This document shows positions 9,915 through 34,430 of a stretch of DNA of 64,000 bases, piece by piece. Below the pieces are notes generated by a model. That model was given only the letters and a program-made list of their open reading frames with translations, made no database searches and had not been told where the DNA came from. The position numbers and the translations under genes are program-made. The DNA lies in the NCBI GenBank assembly GCA_964019055.1, contig OZ025208.1:12335597-12399596 (forward strand), given 5' to 3'. The DNA comes from Anthopleura xanthogrammica (lineage: Eukaryota > Cnidaria > Anthozoa > Actiniaria > Actiniidae). How positions within the stretch are numbered: position 1 is the first letter of the stretch; every line of letters starts with the position of its first letter.

Positions 9915-10043
9915 GTAAGTAAAAAATGATGATAATGCTACTACTGATCATGATGATGAATATTTTTGCTCTGAGCATGGATTTATTAATATAGTTGCAA
10001 CTTTGTAATGGCTAATATCTAAAAAACACTCCTTTTTCAACAG

Positions 10044-11887: not shown

Positions 11888-12102
11888 CATTTGTTTTGTA
11901 GTATTATTCAGCATTATATAATTTGCTCTGGATTCATTTTCTTCTTTTTTTTTTCCACTAATAAATTTTGTTGTCCACGCTGTATCCTTTCCAGACCCTC
12001 TACATTTGTTCATGACTCCTGGCGTTTCTATAATACTAGTAAACAAAATAGAGGGCCGAATAATAGAAATAAAAACAACCGTTTTTCTTCTTTCAATTGT
12101 AG

Positions 12103-13723
12103 TGACACCGAATTTTAACCTTAGTGACGAACAAAAGAGATGGCTTGTGGTTGGAATTTGCCTGAATAAAACTCTTTTGCCACCTTTACGAGCTTTCCTC
12201 AATAAAGAAATGGAGACACATTACAATGATATGAAAACCAGGCACAACATCCACAATCAAATTCATGGGGTGCACTTAAGTGATGATCATGGAAGGCGAT
12301 TGAATTATAAGAGCATTAATAACAATGAAACAAGAAGGAACTCTCATCTCTACGACTACAATGTGACTTCTGCAGAAGATTTGGGCAAGTTGTATTTGAT
12401 GCCATGCATGGCGAAATTCACAGGTGAGGCATCTTCAGTCACTTATGTTATATAAAACATTTAGCCTGATCGTTCGATTATTCGTTAAGATAATTCTTTA
12501 ATTCTTAACTGCATTACATGAGCTGTGCTCTTGCCTTGACGTAGATCAGTCGAAAATAATAGACCCTGGTGCTGCAGGATCTGAAAACGGATTGATGCTT
12601 GGTTTGTTTTGAAGTTATTTTCTTCCTTTTGTTTCTTATTTCAAACTTAAGGGAATGAAGGGTGGGGTAGCGGTAGTGCACTCGCCTCTTGTGTTCAATT
12701 CCTGAGTTTGTTAGTTCGTCTGCTCAGTGTATCGCTAGATTTGAAGGTTTTCCAAATAATTTGCCACATATTTTAAATAAAATGTAAGTTAAACGAAAAC
12801 GTGGGAAAAAAACTTTTTTCGTCATTACTGGCTAAAATGTTAATCTTGATATTTGTCATTCCAGGTTTTGATGATACTTGTGACATGTCTGCTGTTCTTG
12901 GTATTCTCTCATCTGCTAGTGTATTTTCTCCTGACGTCCAAAAACTGGCAAAGGCCGTACGAAGTGACGTCAGAAATCCTTGGGGTCATTGTAACTTTCA
13001 GGAGTGGACCGACACAAAGTTGAAAAGCTGCTTTAAGTTGATGAAAGACCTCGTTCAAGCTTTAACCTTGCCTGCAGATGATGAAAAACGAATAACAGAA
13101 GAGCTAGGAGAGTGGGAAACCAAAGGTAAGCTGTTTCCAATGAAGTATATATGTGATAATTTGGAAGATAGACCGTGATGCTTGTGATTTTTGGTGATAT
13201 GAGTAATTTTGCTGATTCATGGTAATCTTGGAGATATTTATGAACATAATGATGCTGAGACGATGCGTGTATTGCTGTAACTGACGTTCTTGTTAAATAC
13301 TCATGTGACCATGGTAATTTTCATTCTTCGTGGTATTCTTTTTTATGCCAATCTGCTGCAATCTACTTGTAAATTAGATGCGGAAATTGCCAAAGAGTGA
13401 AATATTACCCCAAATTTTTTTGCAATAAAATTGCTATTTACTGAGTCAGTATATTTTCAGGTATGGATCTTTGTGTGGATGTATATTACGAAGCAAATGC
13501 CTTGTTAAAGTTTTTCGAGATGGGCGAGGAACAAATTTCTCGGTTGTTAAAAGAAGTCCAAAAAGAAGAAGCCGAACAAAGAACCAAAGCCTTAGAGATT
13601 ATTCAGAAAGCTTTGGAAAAGGACAAAGAAGACGTGCTCAACCAGATCAAAGGCATGAAACAGCAATTAGATCGCCATGAAGAAGAAATCAAAGCTCTTA
13701 AATTAGCTAGTGAAAATAAGTAA
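12103..13723 (+). CDS. Gene A: DZIP3-type HEPN domain and C-terminal coiled coil
   Basis: Exons 12103-12423, 12545-12601, 12865-13125 and 13461-13723 are all in phase 1 and end with TAA. The first gives LSDEQKRWLVVGICLNKTLL, typical of the DZIP3-like HEPN family in animal immune proteins. The third contains RNPWGH (12972-12989), which fits the R-x4-H signature of RNase-type HEPN domains, so RNA cleavage is a reasonable inference. The last exon is a Glu/Lys-rich coiled coil (KKEEAEQRTKALEIIQKALE). The exons, introns and 3'UTR match 36083-37690 of gene C, and the homology starts right at this exon. The 57-bp exon 12545-12601 preserves frame here, whereas in gene C it is 55 bp. Confidence 0.8.
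12661..12775 (+). mobile_element. SINE-like tRNA-derived element (internally deleted)
   Basis: GGTGGGGTAGCGGTAGTGCA resembles an RNA polymerase III A box and GTTCAATTCC a B box. The same element in the same intron of gene C (about 36888-37130, other strand) is longer by some 120 bp, so the gene A copy has an internal deletion. Its place in both paralogues shows that it was inserted before the HEPN block was duplicated. Confidence 0.6.
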
Positions 13724-14419: not shown

Positions 14420-16853
14420 TCAGTCATTCAAACTGCTGCATTCCATGTCATTATAAATACTCGTCCCAAAATCAATTCCTGGCCAGAAGTACAGGTGTTT
14501 TGTCAGGGTATCATTATGGTGGGGCATTTGCTTTTTTTCTAAATGCTCGCTTTCACTAACTATTTTCTTGACCTTCGTGATCAGTTCTAAAATGTGGTGA
14601 CGATAGGCATATTTTCTGAAAACCTTTACGATACTCTGAATAAAAGGGGAACCTGTAACACCGTAAATATATGCGGTGAAATTTTCGTAACAAGAGTAAA
14701 ACTCTAGAATGTCAGCGGTTTCTGGAATCTTATTTGACTCTGATGATGCCTGAATGGTTGCTGCCGTCGTTACATCTTCTGGAGCATCAGTAAGAGGTAC
14801 CCCACGATCCTCCTTTTTCCCTCGACATCCTTGGAAAAAGAACAGCTTGGGCTTGCCTGCCAGACTTTTGCATTTGGAGCTCCAAAACAAGGAAACGATT
14901 AACGAAGGGGGAAGTTGTTTTCCGTCTGAGGCGTAGATACAGTTTTTTGTTCCGTGGCTCATAATGCAGAAAAAAAAGCAATCATACGCAATGAAATCGT
15001 CATCATCTCTGATGGAAATCCTATATATTTCCTCAAACAGGTCATCCCCAGAAGTCTTGTCGATCGTTTCAACATCGAAACCCAAATGTCTGAACAAACG
15101 GGTAACATCTTTTTCATCCTTTTTTGATCCAACACGGTCGCGCAACTTCCCATGCATCTGATGAGTAGGATCAATAGTGAAGTGTTCTATGTTGACAATT
15201 ACTGCAAAACCCTTTGGATGGTTGGTCATCTTGTAGACGTTATCTGTTCGATGTGGCCTATTGTATGAAGGAATCTCATCCATAATTGTTGGACGAACAA
15301 AACTGGCCTAAGAAGAGAAGATAGAAGCATAGTAATTGCAACATCAATTATGTAAGATGAAACAGGTTACTTGTTTTTACTGCATTCATTTGATAAAGCA
15401 TGTGAGCCAGTGGAAAAGGAATTTGATTTTGTTTCCAAATTTTCTTAGTTGTTTGGATAGAGAAGGTTCGACCTGTTTCAGACCTCTTACCGTTTCCCGT
15501 ATATATTTTCATTGTTGGATAAATAAAAAGGAAAGATGTGTTACCTCATCTTCATCTTCATCTTCATCTTCATCTTCATCTTCATCTTCGTCAAAGCTTT
15601 CCAACTCTTCCGTTCTTTCTGCTGATTGAAGAGAATTCCTGAATGTTTAATGTTATATTTTCTTGAACAATCAACTTATGATTACCCATTGTAATCACAT
15701 ATACTATATATCTTGAGCACAATCCAATAGCCCCTTTGACAGTTCCCCGTGCCAACTTGATAGGTAGCCGAGACATGTGGATAATTGCCCAAAGCGTTAA
15801 AAAAGGTCTCTATCATTGCATGATCACCGTTTGTCTCGCTTCGATGCAACGGTCCGGGTACCTTTCAAGATGGCGCAGGGAACTGTGAAGGGACTATTTA
15901 TTCATTTATCGATAAAACCTTAACCGGCGAACGTCTGAAATATACAAATTATGAAGTCATCTATGCTTAAAGAGATGTTATCTCAACTCATTCATTCATT
16001 TACTAATCATGGCCTCCACAATCACCTCTTCATAATATATCAAAATATCTCTCTGTGAATCTCTCTATATCTATATATATAACTCTGGGTACAACGTACA
16101 GCATTTTGCTGGAATTTCAAATGACGTGTTTACGTCATGTAATGTAATGTGACAAAATGTAATAGCAAAGTTGACTTCAAACAATTGCTTTAAATCGTGG
16201 CATTTGGTCAGTTGTTTTATATTTACTGTATTAATTGTTGACGAAATGCCTCAACTTGAAACAATTGTTTGAAGTCAACTCTGATATCTGCTATATATTT
16301 TATTTTATTTTATTTTATTTTATTTTACATCCAACACTAAATAATGTTTGAATTTTTATGCGGCAGTAGAAATGCTTTTGAGCTGCAAGATAACAAACCT
16401 TCGTTTTCTTCTTTCTCGTGTTCCGCCGACAATAATGTCGGATTGGCCACTGCGCCTACAAAATATAATGAATAATAAAATATGTTAGCAACTCGTTTCT
16501 CTTATCCATTTAAACCGTGCGGTATTTTGGTTGCTCTTAATATCAGACGTTCTTTTTCTTCTTTTGTTTCGTTCTTTAGACAATATCTAAGTACACATTT
16601 ATCCATTGGTAAATATATTTGAAACTAACTGTTTTAGAATACTTTGAAATCTTGAGAAAACATCTTTTTCCCTCATGTTTATTTTTTCAAACGTAGAGCT
16701 CTCCATTAGTTTGAGTGTAGAATAAATGCGCCGGCTAATACAAGATGTGCTATTGCATTACAACAAAATAGTAACTAGAATGGAAAGTTTTGATCTGTAA
16801 AAACCTTCTAATGTCTGAGCTTGTTCTTGGACTTCCAGTTGACGATGATGAGG
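14420..16853 (-). CDS. Gene B exons 10-13: acidic linker and caspase domain
   Basis: Three small exons (16805-16853, 16399-16455, 15545-15621) encode a charged linker ending in a run of Asp-Glu. The 888-bp last exon is a caspase (peptidase C14): GFAVIVNIEHF, a GSKKDEKDV-LFRHLGF pattern, the catalytic His in MSHG (codon 14954-14956), KPKLFFFQGCRG with the catalytic Cys (codon 14825-14827), and a small-subunit region with GSPFIQSIVKVF. QGCRG replaces the usual QACRG. Asp-rich residues between the subunits (PLTDAPED, PETAD) could be processing sites. No DED or CARD prodomain precedes it, which fits a domain activated by the chain it is fused to. If it is a separate gene its start would be the ATG at 15281-15283. 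Confidence 0.85.
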
Positions 16854-19800
16854 CTACAAATTGAATTTATAATGGTAATTGAACTAAGTGGAGTGCAATT
16901 TGGTCTGATATCAAACGCACGATAACAAAATCACACGACCTTGTAGCGGGAGTGTGATTTGTAATCGCAAGTTTGATATCAGACCAAAATTGCACGACAC
17001 GAAGTTCAATTATCACTTTATTATATCCATTTTGAAATCATACTAGATAGACACTAAATTTGTGATAAATACAAAAGTATTTATTAACAAATAGCCGGTA
17101 TTTTGTTTCTTTTTGTAACAAAAAATTGCGGTCAAACTTGAAAAAAGCTACATTTTATGTTCCTCATTTGCTGTAATCTGATTGGCTGATTACATACAAT
17201 CCTGTAATCTGATTGGTTACCTTTTCTAGTGTTGCATTGTGATTGGCTGACAAAAAGATGCGATTCGGACTCAAAATAATGCGATTCATGCTTGAATCAA
17301 TCTACTGAGAGCCAATCAGATTACAGGATTTGCTAGTGATTTCAAATTAAAATGGATATAATAAAGGAAGTTATAAACATTTAGTAAACTACAATGGATT
17401 AAAATATATTACTATCAGCTTAAGTTTTACTTGTCGAAAACGTCGAACGATGATTAAGTAAGACGTCTCCTGGTTATTCCTCTTCTCTTTATTCGCGCTT
17501 TAATCACAGTACAGATACATGTTCTCTGGGCCTCAAGTGTAACATAATCTCATCACTCTATATACATGGATACTTATACTCTCACTGTCACACCCTTTCC
17601 GTCACACAATATGACCTAATTAATTACTGTTTCCAACACACTCCCCCCATATGACTTGACATATGTAGAATGAGGAAACTGCTAAACAAAACGATGAATA
17701 TACTAATAAATGTTTTATAGAGTTCTATAAAGGCTCGTTGATATGTCTTCTGATCAATCTTGATCCTGTGCAATATCTTGAATGCGTAATTGAGCGGCAG
17801 TTGCAGCGTCCCGTCTTGGGCGTGGCACTGTTACTTCTGGATTGCCATTCTGTACTGGCTTGACATCGCATGACAGCTCAAGAGGGTAAAGATGCTGAAT
17901 TGGTCGCTCGATGTGTCCTTTGCCTTTGCGCAACTTCACTGCTCGCACGATACCATCTCGGCCAGTGTACAATTCGGTTATCACTGCCAAAGGCCAATGG
18001 TTACGGTTACGCTCGTCTGACTTTACGAGGACGACATCTCCTACTGCTAGGCGGTTCTCCTTAGTTCCATGCTTTATGAGATGTCGCTCTCGTAAAGCTC
18101 TCATATACTCCCCCGTCCAACGACGCCACATGGCATCCTTCGTGGATTGAATAAACTTGGCCCGTTTTCTGAGATCTCGTGCATCTAAGTGATAGGGTTG
18201 AAGGTCTGGAAGTATGTTGTTGTTAAGGAAGAGTAGTGAATGTGGTGTCAAGGTGGGCAGCTGGTGGTCTTCCTCCATATAACACAATGGTCGGTTGTTG
18301 AGGGTGACCTCGATGTCAAGGACAACGTCGCACAATTCATCCCAGGTCAGATGCCCTTGCCCAACAGTCTTGTAGAATGCAGACTTGAACAGGTCAATGA
18401 GACGTTCGAAATGACCTCCCCACCATGGTGAACGACTCGCGTTGAACCGCCACGTGATGGTTTGCTCACTCAAGAACTCGTGGAACTTTTCATCTTTACG
18501 CACGGTCTTCAGCCACTTGGATGCTGCAACGAACGTCGTACCATTGTCAGAGTAGACTAAGGATGGACGACCTCTCCTTGCAATGAATCTTTTTAGACTC
18601 TTGATGAACTCATCTGTCTCTAGGCTAAATAGGACTTCTAGAAACACTCCTCTTGTTAGACAGCATGAATACAGTATGATGTAGGCTTTCTCTTCGGTCT
18701 TTCATTCACCTTTGTACTTGATTGGACCTGCAAAGTCCACTCCAATGACGTTAAATGGTGTTGTGCCTTGGGTCCGCTCTACGGGTAAGTTTCCTGTTGG
18801 TGGGGCGCTTAAAGGTACTGCGTGAAACCGTTTGCAGCCCCAGCAATTCCTAATCACGTTTTTAGCTAGCCTTCGCAGGCGTGGCACCCAGAATCGCTCT
18901 CGTACTTTAGCCATGGTCAGACTTACTCCCCCATGAAGTGTCGATAGATGGGCGTGTCTCACTACCTCACTCGTAAACGTTGAGTTGTCAGGCAGGAAAA
19001 TAGGCAATTCACCTTGAATGCGACCATGGCACTTCCACACTCCATCTTGGTTCCGCTGTAGATTTAACTGCCCTTTATCATCTGCGAACCTTGATGATTG
19101 TGCGCTCTGTCGTTGTGCATGTCTAATCATCCTAAGTTCTGTCGTCAACGGTCCACTGATTCTCAGTTTAGAAGGATGTCGAGAATTGTGTGTGAATCGC
19201 AAGACCCATGCACAAATTCTCATGGCTTTACGCAAGCCGAACTTTTCGAGTACGTGATCGAAGCAATTGTTTGCTTCAACCCCGACTGCGAAAAGCTCTC
19301 GTTGTACCTTCCTCTCCCCTTCACTGCTAGTACACGACTTGGTGACTATCGTTGGTGGCCATCTCTCAGGATAGGGAAGCCATGCTGGTCCAGACCACCA
19401 CATTTCTTTATTACTTACAGAACCTCCACGACTGCCAAGATCAGCTGGATTGTCCGTGGTTGGAACATGACGCCAACGCGCTTCCTCGTGACTTTGTATT
19501 TTTCTCACTCGATTTGCCACAAACTGTCGATACTCGCCGTTATCCTGTATCCAGTGCAGTGCCACTGTGCTGTCGAGCCAGCATTGTGTATTGCTTGTTA
19601 GCGGAAAGCCCTCTAGCGCATTGCGCACGTTAGACGCTAGGTTTACCGCCATATGTCCCGCTACGAGCTCCAAGCGAGGGATAGTAAGTCCTTCTTTGGC
19701 GAGACGAGATTTCGCTGTGATAAGACCTTGTGAAATTCCCGACGCTTGGGACACTACGGCGTAGACCGCTGCACACACTCCATGTCCACTAGCATCTCCA

Positions 19801-22800
19801 AACGCGTGAAGCTGGATCTCCTTGATAGGTTCTTGGTAGATAGGTATGCTGCGCAACACAGAGACAGAGTCAGGGACACTCTGTTCCCATCTCCTCCACG
19901 TCTTCGCTAAACTATCAGGAAGGGGCGTGTCCCACCCAAGCTTCTGTAGGCACATCTCTCTGTAGAGGCGTTTCCCCTCTAGAGTTACAGGTGACACTAA
20001 CCCTAGAGGATCGTACACCTTAGCGAGGTTTGTGAGAACTCCACGTTTGGTTTCTCTTGCAGGCTCAGAGGGAAAGTTCACTTGAAGTGTGTCTGTGTCC
20101 TTCTTCCAGGTTAATCCAAGGAGCTTAGTTTCTAGTGTAGAGGTTCCTTCAAGTTGTTCTTTTGCATACGTCACTTCATGCTTTTCAGCACAGTCCTCAT
20201 TTTCAAGCTCATTCACGTTGGATCCCCATTTGTGTAGCGTAAATGTCGCATCGCTGAAGATTTTCACAGCTTCATCCTTTAACTGCTTAGCTCCTTGGAC
20301 TGTCGATGCCCCCGATATCAGATCATCTACGTATAAACTTCGCTGGTATTCATCTACACTTGTTGGATATTCAGCTTGCATTGAACTCAAATGCTGTTGA
20401 AGAACTCCGTTTAGAAGAAATGGTGATGGCGCAAGTCCAAATACCACTCTAGTAAACCTCAGTACTTCCACTTCGCGCGACGTTTTGTCCACCAGCCAGT
20501 GAAACCTCAACGCATCTCTATCCGCCTCTCGTACTCTTATTTGTAAGAACGCACGTCGCAAGTCGCCTGTAAGCGCGACGGGGTGGAATCGTTGACGCGT
20601 AATGACTCCCCACAGCAGGTTGTTGAGCGAAGGTCCCGTATGTAGACATTCATTCAACGATGGCACTCCATCTCGCTCACGTGCAGAAGCATCGTACACA
20701 ACACGCATCTTTGTAGTCTCGGCATTCTCTCGTATTACTGGGCGATGGGGAATATAGCACTCCTTTCCTTTGACTTCTGTTGGAGCTCTCTCGACTACAC
20801 CGTCCCTTATTTGTTCTCTAATTATGTTATCGTAATCATCTAACATGTCAGTGCGTTTTAGCTTCCTAACAAGTGCGCTAAGTCTGCGCACACTACCGTC
20901 ATAATTATTAAGTAATTCAGCGCAATTATCCTTCCATGGCAGTCCTGTTTCGTACCATCCTTCGGGTGAACGCTCTAGTTGTTCCTTAAACTCATCATAG
21001 ACATCTCCTTGATTCACGTGTTGTTTGTCAGCTAAACCGAGAATATCCAATGCACACAGTTGCTCGTAATCCACAGTGGAATTAACAGCTACGTAAGCGT
21101 TTGACATACCAGGCTCAGCTCCGGGAGACATAATTGACCATCCAAAACGTGTAAACTCTGCTACTGGGTCTCCGCGACGTCCAACACGTAGACGCTCTCC
21201 GGTACGTATTTTCGCGAAGTCATTCGCTCCAATTATTAAATGAACAGGCAATTCATCTTTGTCATCTGTGTCGTCCATTTGAACTCCTTTCAAATGTAGG
21301 TGGTTGCTAAGTAACTCTTTGTATTTTGGATTGTCTAAAGTCAACAACTCTCGTCGCTCTACTTTAGTAACATTGACATTCAACGTAAATTCTCCTTTCA
21401 CAGATTCCATAACAACGTCAAAAGTTTGCATTGTTCTTGTCGTAATTCCAGTTAACATGGCAATTTGTCGTAGACTCGTAGACTTTGGTGTCGCCTTTAT
21501 AAGGTTGATAGCCGTTGAAGATGCATATGAATGGCTTGCGCCACTGTCCAACAGCGCTCGAAATTTGAGCCCGTTAATTTTCACTACCACAACAGGATGA
21601 ACGACGGTTGTCTTACCAATATGATTAGCTGTCATTCCTGGTTCTTTGTTGAGTGTCTCCTTGTTACAGATTGAAGTATGGTGCCTAGCTCCGCACCTTT
21701 GACAAACTGATTTACTTTTGCAGTCTGCGGCTCGGTGTTTGGCTCCAGTGCAATTGAAACATAGACGTTTTTCTGCTATGATACGTTTCCGGTCGTCGGC
21801 ATTTACAATTCGATCGCAGTTGATGGCCTTGTGGTCTGGTTTATCGCAAAACAAACACGTCTTTGTCTCGTGTTTACATTCCTCTTTAGCGTAGAACATT
21901 TTTCCAGTACGTGGCGCTGGTCTTGGTTGTGGTGCTTTTGACGATACTTTCTCTTCTACAGGATTGATATCCGTCCATCGTCTTAACTCTTCTAGTAGAT
22001 CCTCAAATCCCCAGTCACGCCATTTGTCATGTCCACGCACTAAGTCTGCCTTGATAGCCTTTAGCTTATCTAAAGTCGCTCTCACATTACCCTTCACGTC
22101 ATTTAGTCGGCCAAGAGTTTCTAGGCTTTGAACATTAAACCTCAATTGCTTGTAAAATTCTTTTACTTTACGAGGATTGACTTCGCTAATGATTGGTAAT
22201 TCCATTATATTCCTTGCGTAAGCATTAATTATGTCACTCTCGTTTCCATATTCGGCTTCTAGGATTGCCTTGGCGTTGTTATATCCCTCGTCGGTGAAAG
22301 GCAACCCATCGATATCGTTCCTTACATTCACTTCTAATAGTTCCTTAAGGTAGCCAAACTTTGTGACACTTGGCAGATTGGTCTTTTCGATCTCAGTTTT
22401 AAACTTACCCCAAAAGGGAAGCCAGTTCTCTACTTTACCATCGAACTTGGTAATTTGAAGTTTTGGAAGTTTAGCGGAGGTAGTTGACCTTTGCTCGGAG
22501 GCTTTTTCTTCTTCGCGGTGCTTCTCAAAAGCGGCCTTTTGTTCTAGTAGCTCTCGCTCAAACTTCATAGTTTTCTCGTGCTTCTCGCCCATCTCCCTAT
22601 CTCGTTCTTCCCGGTCAAAAGCCTGTAGTTGATCGGTCAGTTTTGACCTTTCATCGTCGGCTCTCTCAAGCTCTTGATCAATTGTCGCGCTCCATTCGCT
22701 TACGGCTTCTTCACTTTCACCTTTGCCAAACTTCTTCTCCTCTATCGCCTCCTTTAGTTCGTGCACTGCTGTGACTGTCCCAGCGATGGATGTGATCTGT

Positions 22801-25800
22801 CTCTCAGATGCTTGGCGGTCATTTTTGGATATCACTTCGTCAGTTTTGTGCAATCTAAACTTCAGCGTCTTGAGTTTGCTCTCAAGATCGGCGAGTTGTT
22901 TATCCGTCATGTTAAATCCGGTATTCTTGTCCCTTCGTGGTCGCCACTGTGTCGAAAACGTCGAACGATGATTAAGTAAGACGTCTCCTGGTTATTCCTC
23001 TTCTCTTTATTCGCGCTTTAATCACAGTACAGATACATGTTCTCTGGGCCTCAAGTGTAACATAATCTCATCACTCTATATACATGGATACTTATACTCT
23101 CACTGTCACACCCTTTCCGTCACACAATATGACCTAATTAATTACTGTTTCCAACATTACTTTACTGACAGACGTTGTTTTTGCAGATTCAAAATTCATC
23201 CATTTACATTTGCGAAACACACCTGAATTTTTTTCATTTGATTTGCAAACACAGTCCAAGGAAGATTTGACGATGAAAGATGTTAGATCTGATTTAAGTA
23301 TTTACACGTTTTCGCTTAGTGTCCTTTTGTTCAGTTTTGAAGTATCTTAGTCATTGTTCTATTCGTCACATTCTTTAGTATTTTTTGTCATTGTTAGTTG
23401 TCCCTACGGAGTTCGTACTGCTTTATATACGCCCCATATGTTAATCTTTAGTCAGTTGGTGCTTGTCGTTCATCCCGTCCTACACAAATGTAAGTTCTTC
23501 GTTATTCCTTTTAGATCGTTTTTACAGTTTCTTATAGTCCTGTGTTTCTTGTTATTTCACTTTACTTACTTCTTAATTAATTTATTATTTATAGTCTATA
23601 CCTTACTTGTAAGAGTATCGAATTAAAAAAGGAATTTGGGATGTAGCATCGACAAAAGACATAGAAATCATCTTCGGCTGCTATTAGCCATTTCGATGAT
23701 GACTTGATGACTCGTAAATGTGCATGCCGGCGCAGTGAGTGAATGAGTTATACCGTACCAGGACTAACGCGCTCCAAAAGATGTTCCATATTTTCAAGTG
23801 GCCACGTTTTACTAATATTTTTCTCAGCCGGATATCCAACTGACTTTTATGCCAATAAAATTGGATGATGCGCAGAGAGGATGTCAAAGGCGGACAAACG
23901 TGGTTTGAACTGTTGGAGTTCCTGTGATTTAGTGGATCTTAGAATTTACTACTCACCAGTGGGTTTCTTTGTCTCTCTCGGTCTCTTCTCGAAAAGACCT
24001 TGTTCTTGCTCATTTGTAGAGTACCCAAAAGTAAGTCGAAGTTTTCTTCAATTTGTGGGAAAAAATTAAGGACCAGTTCTTCGAGGTTCTCTTGGTCTTG
24101 CCCTGTTTCATGTACACAAAGCTCCTTTCTACAGGGTTCATCGTTCGGCAAGAATCTGAAAAAAGTAAGTAATATTAATGATTTTGTTAAAATCTGCATA
24201 ACACGAGCTTAAATACATTTTTTCTTAGTAACCCTTGCAGAATGTGTTTAGTTAGAATGCAATTTTGCAGGCAGTGTGAATATTTGCAACAGCTGACAAC
24301 TACATCAACAGCAATACCAACAGCAATAATAAAAACAACAGTGACAACAACATTATACACAGTTAGTAGTATCGTACACTAGCAGGGTTAAACAATAGAA
24401 AGAACATAAGCTGCTACGAAGGACATAAAGTGAAGAACAAAAATTGCAAAACGCATAATGTTGGTAAACTAAAAAATAATTAAATGATATATTTACTAAC
24501 TCTAGAAAAAAACTTTCAATTTTCATGTCAGCACCATTGATCTTCAGGTAGGCTTGATCATTTGGCCGCATTCTTCGATCACCAGTAGCTACTGCAAGTT
24601 TGGAACAGCCCTCATCTTAAAGCAAATAAGCACTTTTTAAGAGTCATGGATGAGTCATTGGTCAGTCGGTCAGTAAGTCAAACAGTAAATACTACATATG
24701 TGGATTGAAATTTTAACGCAGCACTTGGTATTTTGAAACACTAAATATTCCTTTACCTTTCATTTTAGATATGGTTTCCCACTGCTTGTGGTTTGCAACA
24801 CACACTAACGTTAACTTTGGCAATAAACTTGCTTCTTCGTTATCCTTGAAGGCAGCGAAACAGACAGCTCGAGGCGGTGAACGTAAATATCGAAATATCG
24901 TAGAAGCAAATTTGATTTTTGCTCCGAACATCCACGGCCACAGACTTAAAGATACAAAAGCAATAGAGGTATGTCACTCAAAATCAGTTGTATAAATAGT
25001 ATGTATTTGACCCTTTAGCCATCGCTTTAAGCGATCGAGCAAGAGCCAAACTAAGTGTCCAAATTAAAAAACTGGAAAAAAATCGTGTAAACAGAAAATG
25101 AAAACTTGTTCACGCAACAACAATCATGCAGTGAAGCAATTTTGGGACCGAGTATCTAGCTCCTTGCAAAGTGGTCGCGACCGATATTTCCCAGATGGGA
25201 ACTGCATGCAAAGCATTTAAAAAAGACAATAAAAATCAAAGCATCGACTTACCAGGAGAAGTGCTTGACATGAAATTCTATGTGGGTCTTGGACTTTGAA
25301 ATATGTGCTTCATGTGTTACATCTCCCCATGCGTTATCTTCCCATTTATCATCCTCCAAGAGAAGAAGCCGGATTTTTGTTGTTGAGTATTCTGCTGTGT
25401 TATTTGGTATGGGCATTTTTACGATGACAGGCTTTGAAAAGGTAATACTTGAAAAACCATCAATACAGAGTATTGGACAAGCATCTTGGGCATGATGGAT
25501 GTTTTCAGGCATTAACATCAACTTTAAAAGGACAAAAAGACTGAGATTAGATATATAATCACTCTTTATTCATTGCAGCGGGCTGAATCCCGGGGAGATG
25601 GGGGTATTTGGGCTGGGTTCTAATAGGAGTGTCCCGCAGAAGCCCTAAAACCCTGAGCCTATCTTAGACAACGATATATTGAAAATCCATGCCATATTCA
25701 ATTCAAGAATGGACCCTATCTTAGACTCAAGGGTAAATTGTATACTGTATACAATAACAACTTACAACTTAGAGGTAATCCCGCCAAGGCGTCGTTTCGA

Positions 25801-28800
25801 AAAAGTCAAAATTTAATAAAAAGTTAAAATTACGATATTTACCAGACCCTATTCAAGATAAATTAAGCTGAAATTTATACCCTATCTACGACAAGAAGCT
25901 CAAAAATCATATCCATCGGCACATACCCGTAAAGCGAATATATGGGAGTACCCCCATATATCTGATCAGCCTTCTCACGGTTCCCATGTAACTTTATGTA
26001 CTCTAACAATTTTATTTTGATTCCAATTGGTCTATTGTCCATTAACCTATTGCGAGAGTTTGTTTCGATCAACGAGTAGCAATGAAAACAATGGTTTGCA
26101 AAATTAATGATTAGGAATATAACTTTTTGAGAATTACTGACTTGTCATTGCTGTGCAGTGATGGACAAGGAAGATTCGTGATGTATGTTCTTAAAACTAT
26201 TGCTATGTTAAACGTAGAAAAAATGTATGATATCCAAACCTTCATAGTTCCTTCCACGGTTTTGTCAACGGTTCCTTCAACGAACTTAACTGTGACATCA
26301 TCACATACAGAAGACCTGACAACACATCCTCTGGGTGTGACTTGGAATCGATCTGTGATGAGTCTGGTGACAACTGCTAAGATAGTCAGCTTACTGATCT
26401 GTACTTGAATGAAATCTTTTCTACAATGTGCTGATACCTTCACTTGTCTGCGATCTAAAACTGCATTCAATAGAAAAGCCTTCAAATTTTATTGGTACCC
26501 CTGAAACAACCTCTGGCTAACTCAAAGAAGAGACCCTAAAACACCTCTTGACTGAACTAAGTCAGTGCACGGCTAGTAATTCACAGGTCAAACCCTGAAA
26601 CAACCTGTTGGCATTCAAAGTTAGGTCAATCAATTTGCAACCTGAGTTAACAATTTCAGTAATTCCATACCTTCTGGCTCTTCCCATCTTCCCTTGTCCT
26701 GATTGAAAGCCTTCACAATAGTTTCGTAACCATACCCCTTTCCTGGCCCAGAGTGCATCAGACTGATCGGCCTATTCAGTTGAACAGTACTGGGTTCCAG
26801 TCCCACGATGTAACTTACGACAGTTTCGCCTTTCCTAGCGGGGGATGTCACGGGTAAGGATTCTTCCGTGTATTTCCTACATATGACAGTAGTAGCTTGC
26901 GTGACTGTGTTTGGTGGGATATCGAGACAAATACCAATCATTGGGATGTCAAGACTTCCACCTTCTGGATTTCTGTTCAATGAAAAGCAAAAACAGTATC
27001 TATTAGAAAAATGGATGAAAAAAATGAATGCTATGCAAATCAAACGATTGTAACATCGACAACAACAAACCATTGACTATTTTATTCTTACATCGTAATG
27101 CACTGTTGAGAAACTTCATCACTTATTCCAGTTACAGCTGGAGAGTTTTCCTCATCAGGTTCAGTTTCAGCTATTCCTGGAGTGACAGGAGCATCGTCTG
27201 GTGGTAATGGAACATCAGGCAGGTATTCTTGGACAGCAGGCATGTGTTCTGTGTCAGTTATTCCTGGTTCAGTAGGAGTGAAAGGAGTATTATCTGCTGG
27301 TAATGGAACATCAGGCAGGTATTCCTGGACAGGAGGCATGTGTTCTGTGTCAGTTATTCCTGGTTCAGTAGGAGCGACAAGAGCATCGTCTGGTGGTAAT
27401 GGAACATCAGGCAGGTCTTCCTGGACAGCAGGCATGTGTTCTGTGTCAGCTAATTCTGGTTCAGTAGGAGTGGCAGGAGCATCGTCTGATGGTAATGGAA
27501 CATCAGGCAGGTCTTCCTGGACAGCAGGCATGTGTTCTGTGTCAGTTATTCCTGGTTCAGTAGGAGTGACAAGAGCATCGTCTGGTGGTAATGGAACATC
27601 AGGCAGGTCTTCCTTGACAGCAGGCATGTGTTCTGTGTCAGCTAATTCTGGTTCAGTTGGAGTGACAGGAGCATCGTCTGATGGTAATGGAACATCAGGC
27701 AGGTCTTCCTGGACAGCAGGCATGTTTTCTGTGTCAGTTATTCCTGGTTCAGTAGGAGTGACAAGAGCATCGTCTGGTGGTAATGGAACATCAGGCAGGT
27801 CTTCCTGGACAGCAGGCATGTGTTCTGTGTCAGCTAATTCTGGTTCAGTTGGAGTGACAGGAGCATCGTCTGATGGTAATGAAACATCAGGTAGGTCTTC
27901 CTGGACAGGAGACACGTGTTCTGTGTCAGCTATTCCTGGTTCAGTAGGAGTGACAGGAGCATCGTCTGATGGTAATGAAACATCACGTAGATCTTCCTGC
28001 ACAGCATGCATGTGTTCTGTGTCAGCTATATCTGGTTGAGTGGGAGTGACAGGAGCAACGTCTGGAGGTAATGGAACATCAGGCAGGTATTCCTGGACAG
28101 CAGGCATGTGTTCTGTGTCAGTTATTCCTGGTTCAGTAGGAGTGAAAGGAGTATTATCTGCTGGTAATGGAACATCAGGCAGGTATTCCTGGACAGGAGG
28201 CATGTGTTCTGTGTCAGCTATTCCTGGTTCAGTAGGAATGACAGGAGCATCGTTTGGTGGTAATGGAACATCAGGCAGGTCTTCCTGGACAGCAGGCATG
28301 TGTTCTGTGTCAGTTATTCCTGGTTCAGTAGAAGAGACAAGAGCATCGTCTGGTGGTAATGAAACATCAGACAGGTCTTCCTGGACAGCAGGCATGTGTT
28401 CTGTGTCAGCTAATTCTGGTTCAGTTGGAGTGACAGGAGCATCGTCTGATGGTAATGGAACATCAGGCAGGTCTTCCTGGACAGCAGGCATGTGTTCTGT
28501 GTCAGTTATTCCTGGTTCAGTAGGAGTGACAAGAGCATCGTCTGGTGGTAATGGAACATCAGGCAGGTCTTCCTGGACAGCAGGCATGTGTTCTGTGTCA
28601 GCTAATTCTGGTTCAGTTGGAGTGACAGGAGCATCGTCTGATGGTAATGGAACATCAGGCAGGTCTTCCTGGACAGCAGGCATGTGTTCTGTGTCAGCTA
28701 ATTCTGGTTCAGTTGGAGTGACAGGAGCATCGTCTGATGGTAATGGAACATCAGGCAGGTCTTCCTGGACAGCAGGCATGTTTTCTGTGTCAGTTATTCC

Positions 28801-31800
28801 TGGTTCAGTAAGAGTGACAGGAGCATCGTCTGATGGTAATGGAACATCAGGCAGGTCTTCCCGGACAGCAGGCATGTGTTCTGTGTCAGCTAATTCTGGT
28901 TCAGTTGGAGTGACAGGAGCATCGTCTGATGGTAATGGAACATCAGGCAGGTCTTCCTGGACAGCAGGCATGTTTTCTGTGTCAGTTATTCCTGGTTCAG
29001 TAGGAGTGACAAGAGCATCGTCTGGTGGTAATGGAACATCAGGCAGGTCTTCCTGGACAGCAGGCATGTGTTCTGTGTCAGCTAATTCTGGTTCAGTTGG
29101 AGTGACAGGAGCATCGTCTGATGATGATGGAACATCAGGCAGGTCTTCCTGGACAGCAGGCATGTGTTCTGTGTCAGTTATTCCTGGTTCAGTAGGAGTG
29201 ACAAGAGCATCGTCTGGTGGTAATGGAACATCAGGCAGGTATTCCTGGACAGCAGGCATGTGTTCTGTGTCAGCTATTCCTGGTTCACTAGGAGTGACAG
29301 GAGCATCGTCTGATGGTAATGGAACATCAGGCAGGTCTTCCTGGACAAGAGGCACGTTTTCTGTGTCAGCTATTCCTGGTTCAGTAGGAGTGACAGGAGC
29401 ATCGTCTGATGGTAATGAAACATCAGACAGCTCTTCCTGCACAACATGCATGTGTTCTGTGTCAGCTATATCTGGTTTAGTGGGAGTGACAGGAGCAACG
29501 TCTGGAGGTAATGGAACATCAGGCAGGTCTTCTTGGACAGGAGGAACGTGTTCTGTGTCAGCTATTCCTGGTTCAGTAGGAGTGACAGGAGCATCGTCTG
29601 ATGGTAATGAAACATCACGTAGATCTTCCTGGACAGCAGGCATGTGTTTTGTGTCAGTTATTTCTGGTTCAGTAGAAGTGATAGGAGCATCGTCTGATGG
29701 TAATGGAACATCACGCAGATCTTTTTGGACAGGAGGCATGTGTTCAGTGTCAGTTATTCCTGCTTTTGTAGGAGTGTCAGGAGCATCGTTTGGTGGTAAT
29801 GGAACGTCATGCAGGTATTCCTGTGAGGAGTACAAAATGACTACACATTATTCAAAAAAGTAACTTTACTTGGAATATCTTCAATCTAGCAAAAAAACAA
29901 AAAAAAGGATAAGATATAGAATAAGGTATTCCGTTAATGGGAGAGAAAAAGTTTGAAACTATATCAAACAATTGTTATCTAAATATCTTAATCGCCTCTC
30001 AAAAGCCTCAAAAGTGTCATACTGGGAGTATGCACTGAAAAATGCTTTTCTCATAGAGGAATGAAGATCCAGCTCAGTAACAGGGCTGATGAACACACGT
30101 GTATATCTACCAATTTAGATACGTTTAAGATATAAATCGTATTAGTATTTGAAGTATCCTCACCTTTCGCATCTTTGTCACCCTTGGTCCATACTCTTTC
30201 AATTTGTCTTTCATTTTTAGTTTCTTACACATTTCTTCAAGTCTGTTGCACAGTAGTTTTCTCACAACACTGTGGTTGTCTTCAGATAAAGACTCCTCCA
30301 TTACAAAAGCTTCTTCATAACTTCGTAGAGCAGCTTCAGGGTCTTTTCTCCATTCATGAATGATTCCAATCAGGTAAAGAATCCTCACAGTCTCTGGGTG
30401 TTTACCAAGGTTGGCTTTTCTTATTTCAGAGGCCTTTTGGGCATACTCAAGGGCCTTGTCATACTCTCTAAGTCCGATAAGAATATTTGCAAGGTTTCTT
30501 TGAAATATTGCAGTATGATCTGTGTCGCTTACTCCCAGTTCTTCTTGCAAAGCCAGTGCTTTTTCCATGCATTCAACTGCTATTTCATATTCTTTTCTTG
30601 CTTTTTTCCTAAAACCAAAAATGCGTTTATACCACTTTTCTTGTTCTTGGCCAAGCTTTTCATGAACATGAGCCATTTGATTGTAATATGTTGGAATTTC
30701 CCAATGATTTTCATTTCCAACAAGTCTTATTTTCATATCCATTGCCTGTTGGTAGTGCTTCTTGGCTTCTAAAGGATCTTCAAGTCCCATGTAACAATTT
30801 CCAATGAGATTTAATGCACGTGCAGTTAAAGTGCTATCTCCATTCAACGGTTTTCTCCTTTCTATTGACTGCTTGAAATGCCCGATTCCTTCTTCGAGAA
30901 GCTTCTTGCCATGTTTCCTTGTTCTTTGTTCTAAAATCAGTCTCTTTGCTTTCATCCACTTGATTTTCCCTTGACAATGCAAAAACAAACTTTTGACCTC
31001 ATTCAACTTTTCAGGACTGCTAGATTGCAGTTTTTCCATAGACGTATTTGCCTTTTCCAATATCTCTTCGTTGACTGTCCCTTTCAAATCCGAGCCTTGA
31101 ATGGACTGCCAGCATCTCATCAGTGCACTGGTAAACCATTGTCCTGATTTGATCAAAACGTAACAGTAAATAACCACTAGAGAAACTTAAACAGTGTTGG
31201 ACTGATAAAAAATAGAAGAGGAAGAAGAAACTGACATGTAGAGAATTTACAAAGTATGAAAATCCTTAGCAAGAGTACTTCATTTGTTTGTTTGTTTGTT
31301 TTTCTTTACTTTTTAAAATTTGAACAGATGTGATAGAAAACTTGTTCAGTAATCACTAGCTTGTACAGGGGCTTGGAATAAAATCCAAGTCCACCTGACA
31401 GTAATCGAACTCGTGACCTTCCGGATACCGGTCGGATGCTCCACCACTGAGCTACATGTGGCTGTGGTCACTTTACTGAGTTGATATGACAGACGGCCTG
31501 CATACTGCTAGGCTCAAGCTGTCCGCGTTCAATTCAGAACGCAAAAAAAATTTGGTAGGTTTGTCGCCAACAAAATATCCAAAAAACTGAGATAAGAAAA
31601 AGTTTATCTGCATACCTTGTTCTTCGGCTGCCTCGGCCCATTTTCCAAAAAGTTCTCTTCTTTCATTTTCATCTTTTAAAACTTCAAATAGAATTCCCAT
31701 CAATGCAAACTGGTTGTGGTCATCAGTGTGAACCAGAAGGTCTAAGGCTTCTTTGTTTTCCTCGGATAATTCGATAGCAAGCTCAAAGTTTGCTCTGTTG

Positions 31801-33230
31801 ATCTCCAGTTTGGAATAAGTTTTCACAAATTCACTTTCCAAGTTATTTGCAAGGTTTGTTAACTTCCCAGAAAAATGTTCAAAGAACTGTTTCTCCCCTT
31901 GTTTTAACTGTTCTTTGTAGACAGGATTTTCTTTGCACAAATGTGAAGTGACAAAGTCCCTGAACAGTGCATGGAGGTCATACTTCCTCTTCGATTCGTT
32001 TGATTTCTTTTCCGCCACGTCTTCTGCTGTGATGATTTTGTGTATTGCTAACATTTCAAGGTCAAGCTCTGCATCATAATCTGAGGAGATCTCAGCAATT
32101 TTCATTGCAGTGGACACAGAAAAAGGACGACGGAGCAAAGAAATCTTTACAGCAACTTGTTTCAGGTGATCGTTTGCTAGAGAATCAAACAATGCACTGA
32201 TACAAGCAAATCGTTCTGGTACTCCCTTTTCTATCTGTGCAGTTATCTTTCGCAGCACATCTGTAGGAGAAGCAAAACTTTCCCTCATCAGCTGTTCTGC
32301 TCCTTGAAGAAGATATGAATTATTACGACACAGGTGAGCGATTTTACGCATTGCTTCATCCTGCTGTTCAATTGAAACATCGACTTTGACACTTTTACTG
32401 ATGAAATCTTTAGAGACATCCTCGCTGAATGGTTTAACATTGTACTCTGTGAACAATTTATTTTTCATTTCTGAATCATTCAATTTTGTGGTCGAGGTAA
32501 GAATGACCTTTAAGCGTCCTATTTTACTTGCTTCAGTGTTTATGATAACCTTTAGAAATTCCAAGAAATCTGCTCTTGTTTCTTGTTCAGCCTGACTCTC
32601 GTTTGAGAGAACCTGCTCAATACTGTCCAGGATTAAGACAGTTTTTCTGCTTAAAGTTTCTAGATGCTTATAGATCCGCTCTCTCTTGTTGTCGCCCCAG
32701 ACAGGAAGATGGAGTGCTTGTAAAATATAAAAATATACAGTATCTACACATTTGATATCTCTCAGATCGATAAACACAGTATCAAAACTTTCCAAACGTT
32801 TTGAAACTTCTTTGGCCAAAGTCGTCTTTCCCACTCCTGAGTCTCCGAACAAGTTTATTCCAGGTACACCAGGATCCGTCACAAGCTTTAGAATGTTATC
32901 CACATCAGCATCCCTACCCACAAAATCAACTTTGGATGGCGAGCAAGCTTCCTTGTAGTCACTAAGCAATTCCATAATTTCCTTGTTCTTCGATGTTTTA
33001 CCAGCCAGGATTTCTAATATTTTCTGATCTCCATGATTATCAATCGCTCCTAGTACATAGAGTTTTTTCAAGGTTCCACATAAGTCATTTTGATCAAAGG
33101 AATCTTTTCTGTTTTGATAGAGTCTTTTCAGTTTATGGATGACATCCGCTGCTTCGGCTTTATCAAACTTTGTAGAAATCTGACCTAAAAGCGAGTCGAG
33201 TAATGCAGGAACGTCGAAAAGTTCTGTCAT
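14420..33230 (-). CDS. Gene B: NB-ARC-TPR-repeat-ZU5-ZU5-UPA-caspase protein, ~2562 aa
   Basis: Thirteen exons in transcription order: 31616-33230, 30164-31143, 27092-29820, 26671-26972, 26240-26460, 25253-25521, 24757-24944, 24501-24615, 23957-24155, 16805-16853, 16399-16455, 15545-15621, 14420-15307. Every join has a GT donor, an AG acceptor and matching phase, and the total of 7689 bp is an exact multiple of three. The product reads as a cytosolic sensor (NB-ARC switch, TPR), a long disordered spacer, a PIDD/NLRP1-type autoproteolytic ZU5-UPA unit and a caspase. The least certain points are the donor GTTAGT at 24500 and the joining of the caspase exons across the 7-kb intron that holds the BEL element. 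If that join is wrong, the caspase (from about 16853) is a separate neighbour. A mini-exon like 42078-42117 of gene C survives near 29865-29887 but has lost its donor and is left out. Confidence 0.65.
15545..15602 (-). repeat. Hexanucleotide microsatellite coding the Asp-Glu linker
   Basis: TCATCT/TCTTCA units (GATGAA on the coding strand) run through most of the exon, encoding alternating Asp-Glu just before the caspase. Length changes in multiples of 6 bp would keep frame. Confidence 0.85.
16866..17367. mobile_element. Two nested inverted repeats in a gene B intron
   Basis: The first has arms 16866-16940 and 16949-17025 (gcaatttggtctgatatcaaac and its complement). A second pair, ttattatatccatttt (17018-17040) and aaaatggatataataa (17337-17367), encloses 300 bp containing two repeats of gtaatctgattggct. 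No coding capacity. Likely a MITE inserted in or next to another. Confidence 0.65.
17432..17638 (-). repeat. 3' LTR of the BEL/Pao element
   Basis: 207 bp, same sequence as 22950-23156 by eye. In element orientation it begins TGTTGGAAAC and ends GTTTTCGACA. Confidence 0.92.
17754..22910 (-). pseudogene. BEL/Pao Gag-Pol polyprotein, one in-frame stop
   Basis: From the N-terminus: a coiled-coil Gag part; a DUF1759-like capsid region (KLQITKFDGKVENWLPFW); CCHC zinc knuckles; an aspartic protease with LLDSGAS (DSG at 21540-21548); reverse transcriptase with YVDD at 20322-20333; the Pao/A17 region and RNase H (HAFGDASGHG); the integrase HHCC zinc finger; and the integrase core. A TGA at 18702-18704 falls inside the core, just after its first Asp (GVDFAGP). 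The same frame then runs on with SDNGTTF and WWGGHFERL, which hold the other two catalytic residues, and ends in a DUF5641-like tail. As it stands the copy cannot make full-length integrase without readthrough. Confidence 0.9.
22950..23156 (-). repeat. 5' LTR of the BEL/Pao element
   Basis: 207 bp. Contains a TATATAG stretch and AATAAA in sense direction, so it carries promoter and polyadenylation signals in the orientation of gene B. Confidence 0.92.
23162..23956. other. Gene B intron sequence beyond the BEL element
   Basis: No convincing exon. A plus-strand open stretch at 23186-23350 follows an acceptor-like ttgtttttgcag but has no partner. The ORFs at 23354-23626 (+) and 23684-23887 (-) show no domain. 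Confidence 0.5.
23957..26972 (-). CDS. Gene B exons 4-9: ZU5-ZU5-UPA module with HFS self-cleavage motif
   Basis: Exon 26671-26972 is the first ZU5 (EGGSLDIP, then ICLDIPPNTV, then GETVVSYIVGLEP and WEEPEG). Exon 26240-26460 ends it (SKLTILAVVTRLI) and opens the second ZU5 (VTPRGCVVRSSVCDDVTVKF). Exon 25253-25521 closes with KHFSC, whose HFS (25255-25263) matches the cleavage motif of PIDD and of the FIIND of NLRP1 and CARD8, cut between Phe and Ser. The first ZU5 has KLT at the comparable place and is probably not cut. Exons 24757-24944, 24501-24615 and 23957-24155 carry the UPA (SPPRAVCFAAFKD onward). Cleavage would give a non-covalently held C-terminal part of about 525 residues. Confidence 0.75.
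25560..26100. other. Gene B intron with degraded repeat
   Basis: Between exons 25253-25521 and 26240-26460. The phrase 'ccctatcttagac' occurs at about 25708-25722 and in variants nearby, as in an old transposon. The 65-codon ORF at 25875-26072 has no recognised feature. Confidence 0.4.
27092..29820 (-). CDS. Gene B exon 3: ~28 tandem copies of a 32-residue Pro/Asp repeat
   Basis: A single 2729-bp exon encodes a 96-bp repeat, consensus DLPDVPLPSDDAPVTPTEP followed by G/E-I/L-T/A-DTEHMPAVQE. Acidic, proline-rich and almost free of aromatic residues, so it should be disordered. Units alternate in two types (PSDDAPVTP..ELADTEH and PPDDALVTP..GITDTEH), giving a 192-bp higher-order pattern, and blocks near 27230-27360 recur near 28080-28220. 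Gene C has only two mini-exons here (42078-42117, 41635-41683), the second with a similar DIPDIDDD stretch, so the array probably grew from such a seed. The opposite strand is also open through the repeat, which is a shadow. Confidence 0.8.
30164..31143 (-). CDS. Gene B exon 2: TPR region
   Basis: About 327 residues in paired helices, with kinesin-light-chain-like TPR signatures about 42 residues apart: STLTARALNLIGNCYMGLED, AKKHYQQAMDMKIRLVG, IFQRNLANILIGLREYDKAL and EAALRSYEEAFVMEESL. In this family TPRs follow the NB-ARC in the place of LRR or WD40 repeats and are presumed to sense ligand or hold the protein inactive. Opens in phase 1 after the SINE-bearing intron and closes in phase 0 at GCGAAAG/GTGAGG. 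Confidence 0.85.
31285..31465 (-). mobile_element. tRNA-derived SINE in intron 1 of gene B
   Basis: On the minus strand TAGCTCAGTGGTGG (31441-31454) is a pol III A box and GAGTTCGATTAC (31401-31412) a B box, spaced as in a tRNA. A non-tRNA body and an (AAAC)n-like tail follow, ending near 31285. The same element is in the same intron of gene C, so it predates the B/C duplication. Gene A's intron 1 lacks it. Confidence 0.75.
31616..33230 (-). CDS. Gene B exon 1: NB-ARC NTPase domain
   Basis: Starts at the ATG at 33228-33230 (MTELFDVPALLDSLL), in the same position as gene C. About residues 1-100 are helical and unassigned. FVGRD is followed by the P-loop GDSGVGKTT (about 129-136), Walker B LILDSIEQ (about 199-206), the sensor-like ILTSTTKL (about 243-250), a winged-helix segment and DLHALFRDF (about 418-426), the equivalent of the MHD motif. 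All nucleotide-binding residues expected of an active STAND switch are present. Very close to exon 1 of gene C by eye. The exon ends in GAACAAG/GTATGC. Confidence 0.85.
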
Positions 33231-33465: not shown

Positions 33466-34085
33466 GACAGTGTTTCGCTCGACTAGCAAATGATGAATTG
33501 CTGGCTTTCAATTACGTCATCATCAATTTCAAAAGCATAAATTCGCATTATCATAAAATAAGAATTTTATTATCTTGTAAAGCGGTCAAAACTACATATA
33601 CTGGTCAAGTTTCTAGGCTGTAGGTCATTTGGTTGTGGAATTATGAGCGAGCAAACATGACGCGATTTTTGGTTAAAATGTATGGAGCGGTCATATTGGT
33701 GTTCCACTCTGGTGCACCAATATGGCGGACGAAACTTCGACGGCTGAAAATGATAGAATATTTAATATTTTCGATTAGATTCCACTGAAATAGACTTGAA
33801 ATAGAGATTATAAACGTACACAAAGCAAAATCTTTCACCTAGGTTAATTATTTTTGATTTTTATCGTTCTTCAGATACACGTGACGTTATTGCGTGTTAA
33901 AACTAATTTGGGTGCAATAGTTATCTAATTTAATAGGGTAATTTATGATCATTCAAATTAAAGTGCACCTACCCCTTGATACGATACTTCCATTATTGGT
34001 TCTACATGAAGTGATCATGACTGATATTTGAATAGTTAAATATTTCTTCATTTGAGTGTTGCGTCATTGAAATATACCATCACAG

Positions 34086-34430
34086 GTCCACTCTTGGATG
34101 GAAACATCTTAGTCAAGGATCTGGACCATGTAACGAAATTAGAATTGTCTAGAACTTTATCAGGTAAGAATATGTTGTTGGTTACTGCCTTTGATGATAC
34201 GTGGACTTGATTACCTGTATTAAGATTATTGTCTATATTTTTTATTTCAGTAAAATATGAATATGGAGAATTTTTGCAGAAAAAAATCGACGGTATTACA
34301 AATATTGATATCAAGTATTATGCAGCAAGAAAAGATAACCGTGTTTTGGAGATTTTGCCATCAATGTAGCAACATGACGATTGATACACCTGCACAGACT
34401 TCTTGTTGAAAGTGGAGCAAATGCTATCGC
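34086..34430 (+). pseudogene. Decayed Death-domain exons, copy of 483-1470
   Basis: 34086-34163 matches exon 483-560 ([11 protein letters not shown]) with both splice sites kept. 34251-34430 matches exon 1280-1470 but loses the conserved Trp, then 2 bp near 34355, bringing a TAG at about 34366-34368. The upstream exons are absent. It lies 0.85 kb from the start of gene B, on the opposite strand. Confidence 0.8.

Follow-up and report, generated by a model that had tools for sequence, protein, structure and literature searches.

A sea anemone gene predicted to join a STAND ATPase, tetratricopeptide repeats, a ZU5-ZU5-UPA module and a caspase in one protein

Self-cleaving ZU5-UPA proteins and the locus under study

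Several proteins that control caspases carry a ZU5-UPA unit. PIDD1 has two ZU5 domains followed by UPA, with an HF/S motif after the ZU5 domains (PMC3210808), and its complex activates caspase-2 (PMC8385073). In NLRP1 and CARD8 the ZU5-UPA unit cleaves itself and the released UPA fragment clusters (PMC7483925, PMC7794386). Here we describe a gene of the sea anemone Anthopleura xanthogrammica that is predicted to place such a unit between a STAND ATPase with tetratricopeptide repeats (TPRs) and a caspase. The gene, called the window gene or gene G, lies in a stretch of 64,000 nucleotides (the window) from contig OZ025208.1 (C3:12335597-12399596). The whole genome that was searched comprises 290 Mb in 125 contigs.

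PIDD1 and the window gene have in common two ZU5 domains and HF/S, and a UPA-like stretch of the window gene stands where PIDD1 has UPA. PIDD1 differs in its leucine-rich repeats (LRRs), its C-terminal Death domain and its CRADD/RAIDD linker to caspase-2, whereas the window gene has an ATPase-TPR front and a caspase end. NLRP1 and CARD8 resemble it in the ZU5-UPA unit, which in the window gene is a predicted one, and NLRP1 also in having a nucleotide-binding sensor; however, they end in a CARD that recruits caspase-1 or ASC, and they have one ZU5 with SF/S rather than two ZU5 domains with HF/S. The C-terminal Death domain or CARD of these proteins is present neither in the window gene nor in its paralog E, both of which have a caspase instead. 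Compared with NLR (NACHT-LRR) proteins, the window gene matches the NACHT profile but has TPRs and no LRR match.

Other families share single features. NB-ARC proteins of the APAF1/CED-4 family with TPRs replacing WD40 have been reported for a set comprising sea urchin, amphioxus and Nematostella (PMC2246300). They are similar in their NB-ARC-type ATPase and TPR versions and differ in having N-terminal CARD, DED, Death or TIR connectors, and ZU5 is unmentioned in that text. The 'shortcut' LRR-caspase and TNFR-caspase hybrids of amphioxus unite receptor and caspase in one protein and dispense with the adaptor (PMC2575513), and coral caspase-X proteins join caspases to unusual partners such as a glycosyltransferase (PMC4715348); both differ from the present gene in that neither text mentions ZU5, and hence neither describes a ZU5-UPA release module. 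Kaur et al. 2021 found UPA-ZU5/FIIND fused to many partners in expanded families of marine-invertebrate TRADD-N proteins, those of cnidarians among them (PMC8195603). Self-cleavage was predicted for these families and may matter for effector deployment, but they are built around TRADD-N, and no STAND-ZU5-UPA-caspase order is named in the excerpts (PMC8195603). Cnidarians and sponges are known to combine NACHT with ZU5 (PMC8260672, PMC12909245). Searches of an open-access library, subscription journals and supplements excluded, brought up no STAND-ZU5-UPA-caspase fusion. The author of an earlier sequence-only reading of the window knew of no described protein with the full order. The fusion would be a variant of the PIDD/NLRP1/CARD8 release principle.

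Exon chain, predicted cleavage motif and caspase of the window gene

The window gene and two paralogs, D and E, are each predicted to encode a single STAND-TPR-ZU5-ZU5-UPA-caspase protein. On balance this protein would probably act as a death receptor complete in itself, in the manner of PIDD and NLRP1. The sequence shows exon order, reading frames, phases, motifs and homology. A base-by-base rebuild from 33230 to 14420 on the minus strand gave 13 exons, 2562 codons in all, whose one stop is the terminal one, so the chain proposed in the sequence-only reading, in one frame from the P-loop to the caspase stop, is confirmed. Exon 1 opens at an ATG, all borders are AG/GT and all phases match; several borders have alternative splice sites, and those that hold the frame were chosen. 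The order is STAND ATPase, TPRs, a repeat exon, ZU5-ZU5 with HF/S, a UPA-like stretch and caspase:

Exon 1, 31616 to 33230, minus strand: helical N-terminus (residues 1 to about 100) and STAND ATPase with Walker A GDSGVGKTT
Exon 2, 30164 to 31143, minus strand: TPRs (TPR_12, 1.6e-28)
Exon 3, 27092 to 29820, minus strand: tandem array of a 96-bp unit (27.6 copies) coding for an acidic, Pro-rich 32-residue repeat
Exon 4, 26671 to 26972, minus strand: first ZU5 domain (Pfam, 5.6e-9)
Exon 5, 26240 to 26460, minus strand: end of the first ZU5, without HFS, and start of the second
Exon 6, 25253 to 25521, minus strand: second ZU5 with the predicted self-cleavage motif HF/S at its end (Ser = residue 2038)
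Exon 7, 24757 to 24944, minus strand: UPA-like 1, within the ankyrin-B alignment
Exon 8, 24501 to 24615, minus strand: UPA-like 2; an 84% identical exon occurs in gene J
Exon 9, 23957 to 24155, minus strand: UPA-like 3, donor CTG/gtgagt; a 68% identical exon occurs in gene J
Exon 10, 16805 to 16853, minus strand: linker, by eye like that of Actinia tenebrosa P0001
Exon 11, 16399 to 16455, minus strand: linker like P0001 (GAVAN...), weakly like gene J (E 0.003-0.004)
Exon 12, 15545 to 15621, minus strand: acidic linker (DEDEDE), acceptor at 15621 or 15618; no paralog support found
Exon 13, 14420 to 15307, minus strand: caspase (Peptidase_C14, 6.2e-49) and stop codon

The ATPase matches the Pfam profiles AAA_22 (1.6e-11) and NACHT (8.9e-8; 32.6 bits, over the cut-off of 26.7) and can be counted among the STAND NTPases, as it has a P-loop and exceeds the cut-off of a STAND profile. 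Against the NB-ARC profile it scores 2.3e-4 and 20.9 bits, under the cut-off of 23.5. The first ~100 residues (window 32931-33230, minus strand) are a conserved helical domain, predicted as five helices in a structure model; eight cluster copies were aligned and are 67-83% identical to that of the window gene. An N-terminal death-effector domain was not adopted, as profile searches with eight of the nine cluster N-termini gave no Death-fold family and no convincing match to any other. Length varies most in the exon that separates TPR from ZU5, which encodes ~27 residues in E, ~39 in D and ~910 in the window gene. It may be speculated that this acidic, repeat-prone exon serves as bait for foreign proteases or as an entry point for degradation.

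The joined ZU5 exons contain two ZU5 stretches in Pfam (8.2e-11), and the ZU5-UPA part aligns over residues 13-324 of 431 to the ankyrin-B ZU5-ZU5-UPA-DD structure (6.5e-9). Both results point to two ZU5 domains, and the ankyrin-B alignment does not stop at HFS but extends beyond it. HF/S is the PIDD-type cleavage motif (PMC3210808). HFS stands at the end of the second ZU5 in the window gene, D and E, and it is found again in P0001 and at a separate locus on C18. All nine second ZU5s of the cluster have HF followed by S or C (seven HFS, two HFC), and the motif is kept regardless of the divergence of this exon, whose other eight cluster copies are 32-79% identical to that of the window gene.

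Exon 5, at the ZU5-ZU5 border, is 80-89% identical in six of the eight other cluster copies and 58-61% in the remaining two. Window positions 26240-26460 are 80-84% identical to D or E, with a synonymous divergence (dS) of ~0.2-0.3, whereas the flanking exons are 37-45% identical. The pattern resembles that left by gene conversion or by an exchange of exons.

How might such a protein work? We infer transcription as one messenger RNA, followed by self-cleavage, release, clustering and action on a substrate. Self-cleavage of the second ZU5 at HF/S is likely the first event, and the halves would stay together non-covalently, as in PIDD, NLRP1 and CARD8. A UPA-caspase fragment would then come free, either through sensing by the TPR/ATPase part or when the N-terminal half is destroyed or rearranged. 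Counted from the HFS serine (residue 2038), this fragment would have 525 residues in the window gene, in agreement with the sequence-only reading, 435 in E and 425 in D. UPA would cluster the fragments, and the caspase-8-like domains would then activate one another by proximity, without a CARD or Death-domain adaptor.

The caspase domain is matched over its whole length by Peptidase_C14 in the window gene, in E (7.1e-42) and at C18 (1.1e-49), and the best match of the window-gene domain is caspase-8. The genome search for caspases gave at least 20 places, and 12 of these 20 were taken into an alignment and tree. The catalytic His (SHG) and Cys (QACxG type) are present in all 12, the window gene having QGCRG. 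The p10 [YFW]R arginine, a substrate-pocket residue, is kept in ten (D, E, B, C18 and six others) and is Gln in one further caspase and Ile in the window gene, so that ordinary Asp specificity is less certain for the window copy only. The tree places G and B apart from D and E, which are united with them in 1% of bootstrap trees. Several independent caspase captures were nevertheless not adopted, as a single origin was not rejected by the approximately unbiased test (p-AU 0.133 for G, B, D and E; 0.383 with C18).

Other elements of the sequence-only reading need revision. Its single ZU5-UPA unit is replaced by two ZU5 domains in a PIDD/ankyrin-like arrangement. Its NB-ARC sensor holds for paralog E, which passes both NB-ARC and NACHT, and falls short in the window gene, where NACHT passes. 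The absence of Death and CARD domains agrees with the profile searches, with the proviso that the helical N-terminal domain has no family match. Of the profiles that the reading had proposed to run, ZU5 and Peptidase_C14 are matched, UPA is unmatched and NB-ARC stays under its cut-off. Its fused order, in which no recruitment domain separates UPA from caspase, has support from the window gene and stronger support from D and E; the self-cleavage and release it implied stay at the level of prediction.

One probable gene and its alternatives

In-frame chaining by itself is weak evidence for one gene. When the transposon was excised from the intron between exons 9 and 13, nine in-frame bridges with one extra exon were found, a count that none of 50 block shuffles reached (mean 2.9, range 0-8); chaining as proof of a gene was not adopted, since such paths arise in shuffled sequence too. 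Exon 9 could also be joined directly to exon 13 in frame, without exons 10-12. The linkers like exons 10 and 11 that follow UPA in Actinia tenebrosa P0001 (by eye) and, weakly, in gene J lead there to a Death domain, and therefore exons 10-11 are tied to UPA and not to the caspase. The window chain is lifted above chance because it is repeated in paralogs D and E and, less completely, at C18:

Gene D, C3:12291861-12300754, plus strand: ten exons, 1600 codons, no internal stop
Gene E, C3:12302973-12311410, plus strand: ten exons, 1588 codons, no internal stop

Both have the order STAND, TPR, acidic exon, ZU5, ZU5-HFS, UPA and caspase, with the phases of the exons they share with the window gene; a short acidic exon replaces repeat exon 3 with phases unchanged. 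The intron that separates UPA from caspase measures 239 bp (D) or 785 bp (E); the junction is in phase 0 in all three genes. As a single chain, gene E passes the Pfam cut-offs for NB-ARC (27.3 bits), NACHT (31.2), TPR_12, ZU5 (2.8e-10) and Peptidase_C14. D and E are under constraint: the ratio of nonsynonymous to synonymous substitution rates (dN/dS) between them lies at 0.32-0.71 for each of the seven folded segments, the caspase having 0.49, and at 1.36 for the acidic exon (23 codons).

Several observations weigh against a single self-cleaving receptor-caspase. UPA had no Pfam match in the window gene or gene E, and in the structure model of P0001 (mean predicted local distance difference test score, pLDDT, 42.7) the UPA part lies below 50 and only the second ZU5 is usable. 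Self-cleavage of rNLRP1 needs a catalytic His 27 residues ahead of the Ser (H942, S969; PMC8081665), and by eye there is none 27 residues before the HFS Ser in the window gene or E. Several His residues of differing weight, such as rNLRP1 H942 and CARD8 H270, have however been named for self-cleavage (PMC8081665, PMC3210808), and the HFS motif itself contains a His. No protein with both ZU5 and caspase came up in searches of 5.8 billion proteins, the candidates being 0.55-1.75 times the query length. At C18 the in-frame junctions reach as far as the second UPA exon. To these are added the weakness of in-frame chaining, the Ile in the caspase of the window copy and the retrotransposon in its intron 9:

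Long terminal repeat (LTR) retrotransposon, BEL/Pao-type, 17432 to 23156, minus strand (the gene's strand): within intron 9, not part of the host gene

The BEL/Pao name is our assumption from the appearance of the pol frame, which is long and broken by one stop. The element, of 5.7 kb, has two 207-nt LTRs identical at 207/207 positions, a 5-bp target-site duplication (TTACT) and an AATAAA in each LTR on the gene's strand. It is a young element that could cut the message short. The window gene is the weakest copy of the fusion, with this element in intron 9 and its Ile-substituted caspase, and may be impaired.

The alternative that survives best, though it is unlikely, is that the window copy is decaying, its message truncated by the LTR element and its caspase altered or dead, so that only D and E are intact fusions. 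It is favoured by the identical LTRs, the perfect duplication and the AATAAA, by the Ile in p10 and QGC in place of QAC, and by gene B, which has the caspase closest to that of the window gene together with a split-frame ATPase/TPR part and a stop in the caspase. On the other side, all 2562 codons are open, with no stop or frame break, the caspase exon included, and the G-B caspase pair has a dN/dS of 0.46; any decay should therefore be recent. Introns often carry LTR elements without harm.

More doubtful still is an uncut protein whose ATPase oligomerises in an APAF1-like manner and activates the tethered caspase by proximity, ZU5-UPA being a hinge only. The nearest solved relatives are ankyrin ZU5-UPA units, which to our knowledge do not self-cleave; in paralog B no ZU5 was found on the way from STAND-TPR to the caspase; HFS is missing from the first ZU5; and there is no His at the rNLRP1 H942 position (by eye). 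What argues for cutting is the retention of HF with S or C in nine of nine divergent second ZU5s of the cluster, and of HFS at C18 and in P0001.

That two genes are present on this strand, first a STAND-TPR-ZU5-UPA receptor that stops after its UPA exons and, just downstream of it, a short caspase gene in its own right, would fit the in-frame ATG near the start of the window caspase exon (MDEIPSYNRP), the retroelement between the halves and the bridges in shuffled sequence, but is very improbable given the short UPA3-to-caspase distances and matching phases in D, the lack of a Met ahead of VYKM in the caspase frames of D and E, the GT donors that end UPA3 in the window gene, D and E (gtgagt, gtatgg, gtatac), the caspase as the only domain among those searched between UPA3 and the next STAND gene in D, and the recurrence of the pattern at C18.

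The cluster, related proteins and a possible release cassette

The single receptor-caspase gene considered most probable here does not stand alone. Domains were mapped exon by exon across C3:12209001-12519596, minus a 1.6-kb gap, and at least nine tandem STAND-TPR genes (A to I) with differing ends were found; ZU5-ZU5 follows in seven of the nine, B and F being without it. The genome search for NB-ARC gave at least 36 places, and several caspase or NB-ARC places lie within 150 kb of the window. Genes A, F, H, I and partly C have ends that by eye are HEPN-like. HEPN was not adopted for them, H alone having been tested (HEPN_Swt1, 21.1 bits, under the cut-off of 27.5). Two further genes of the region are:

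Gene B, C3:12263014-12269279, plus strand: STAND-TPR then caspase, frames broken
Gene J, C3:12444144-12462706: ends in Death-like exons

In gene B the ATPase and TPR matches are split between frames, a stop lies inside the caspase match and the domain map shows no ZU5 between the two parts; it is probably decaying. Gene J is likely the counterpart of Actinia tenebrosa P0001. The window itself contains the following neighbours:

Paralog H, 36086 to 45318, minus strand: STAND 91% and TPR 82% identical to the window gene, ZU5-ZU5(HFS)-UPA, then HEPN-like and coiled-coil-like exons where the window gene has a caspase
Paralog F, 5184 to 13723, plus strand: STAND (frame break near 5608-5630), TPR and a HEPN-like and coiled-coil-like end, with its own 69-bp tandem repeat (9527-9852) and no ZU5 found; tail to tail with the window caspase gene
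Paralog I, 58223 to 64000 and beyond the window, plus strand: STAND-TPR-ZU5-ZU5(HFS)-UPA with HEPN-like exons beyond; first-ZU5 exon 88% and STAND 48% identical to the window gene
3 to 1467, plus strand: Death-like exons resembling the P0001 end, apparently the last part of a gene that lies upstream of the window
34079 to 34357, plus strand: apparently orphan Death-like fragment (P0001-like), close to the start of the caspase gene on its upstream side and opposite to it in strand
49278 to 50024: 30-bp repeat in 25 copies with a long open frame (TTSTKRTTIP) and strong strand skew

In the protein databases the sole ZU5-bearing relative found was Actinia tenebrosa LOC116293177 (P0001, 919 residues), 62% identical over 57% of the query, from ZU5-ZU5-UPA into the linker. 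The closest named relative is thus a sea anemone (Actiniaria), rather than one of the corals that the sequence-only reading had suggested for comparison. P0001 shares the ZU5-ZU5-UPA block, HFS and the exon 10-11-like linkers, but it has a helical N-terminus without STAND or TPR match and, in place of the caspase, a Death-like end that scores 20.0 bits against a cut-off of 22.6. Further matches were seven TPR proteins, the named ones bacterial, and 11 caspase-domain proteins, nine of them with PF08477 (which we take to be Roc); one search scored only 7980 candidates, those with the most words in common, a set that the acidic linker may have crowded.

A search of the whole genome for ZU5 gave 16 places, and one of them (C18:2105417-2105680, minus strand) is followed on its own strand, 8.3 kb downstream, by a caspase:

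C18 locus, C18:2096245-2113313, minus strand: HEPN_DZIP3-NACHT-LRR-ZU5-ZU5(HFS)-UPA exons, then caspase

The matches stand in the order HEPN_DZIP3 (1.4e-48), NACHT (3.2e-29), LRR_6 (1.9e-7) and ZU5 (1.3e-8); then come another ZU5, with HFS at its end, a pair of UPA-like exons and, after ~3.5 kb, the caspase. In-frame splice junctions are available from NACHT through the second UPA exon. A long (PSIH)n-coding repeat lies immediately before that exon. If it is one gene, the C18 locus would be an NLRP1-like receptor with a caspase in the place of the CARD, and a closer parallel to NLRP1 than the window gene is.

It is about an even chance that cnidarians have a system in which one self-cleaving ZU5-ZU5-UPA cassette stands between interchangeable sensors (STAND-TPR, NACHT-LRR) and ends (caspase, HEPN-like, Death), and in which a sensor freeing its own caspase would act as an adaptor-free inflammasome. 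In PIDD, NLRP1 and CARD8 the released CARD or Death piece must find a caspase; here, if the reading is true, the released piece is the caspase, and a self-cleavage switch can drive an enzyme directly. The gene would then be a minimal, single-gene system for asking whether UPA clustering alone activates a caspase, and cnidarians would be seen to combine ZU5-UPA release with STAND sensors. In the cluster one cassette is followed by Death, HEPN-like or caspase ends, which would make it a natural series for the study of output swapping in death receptors.
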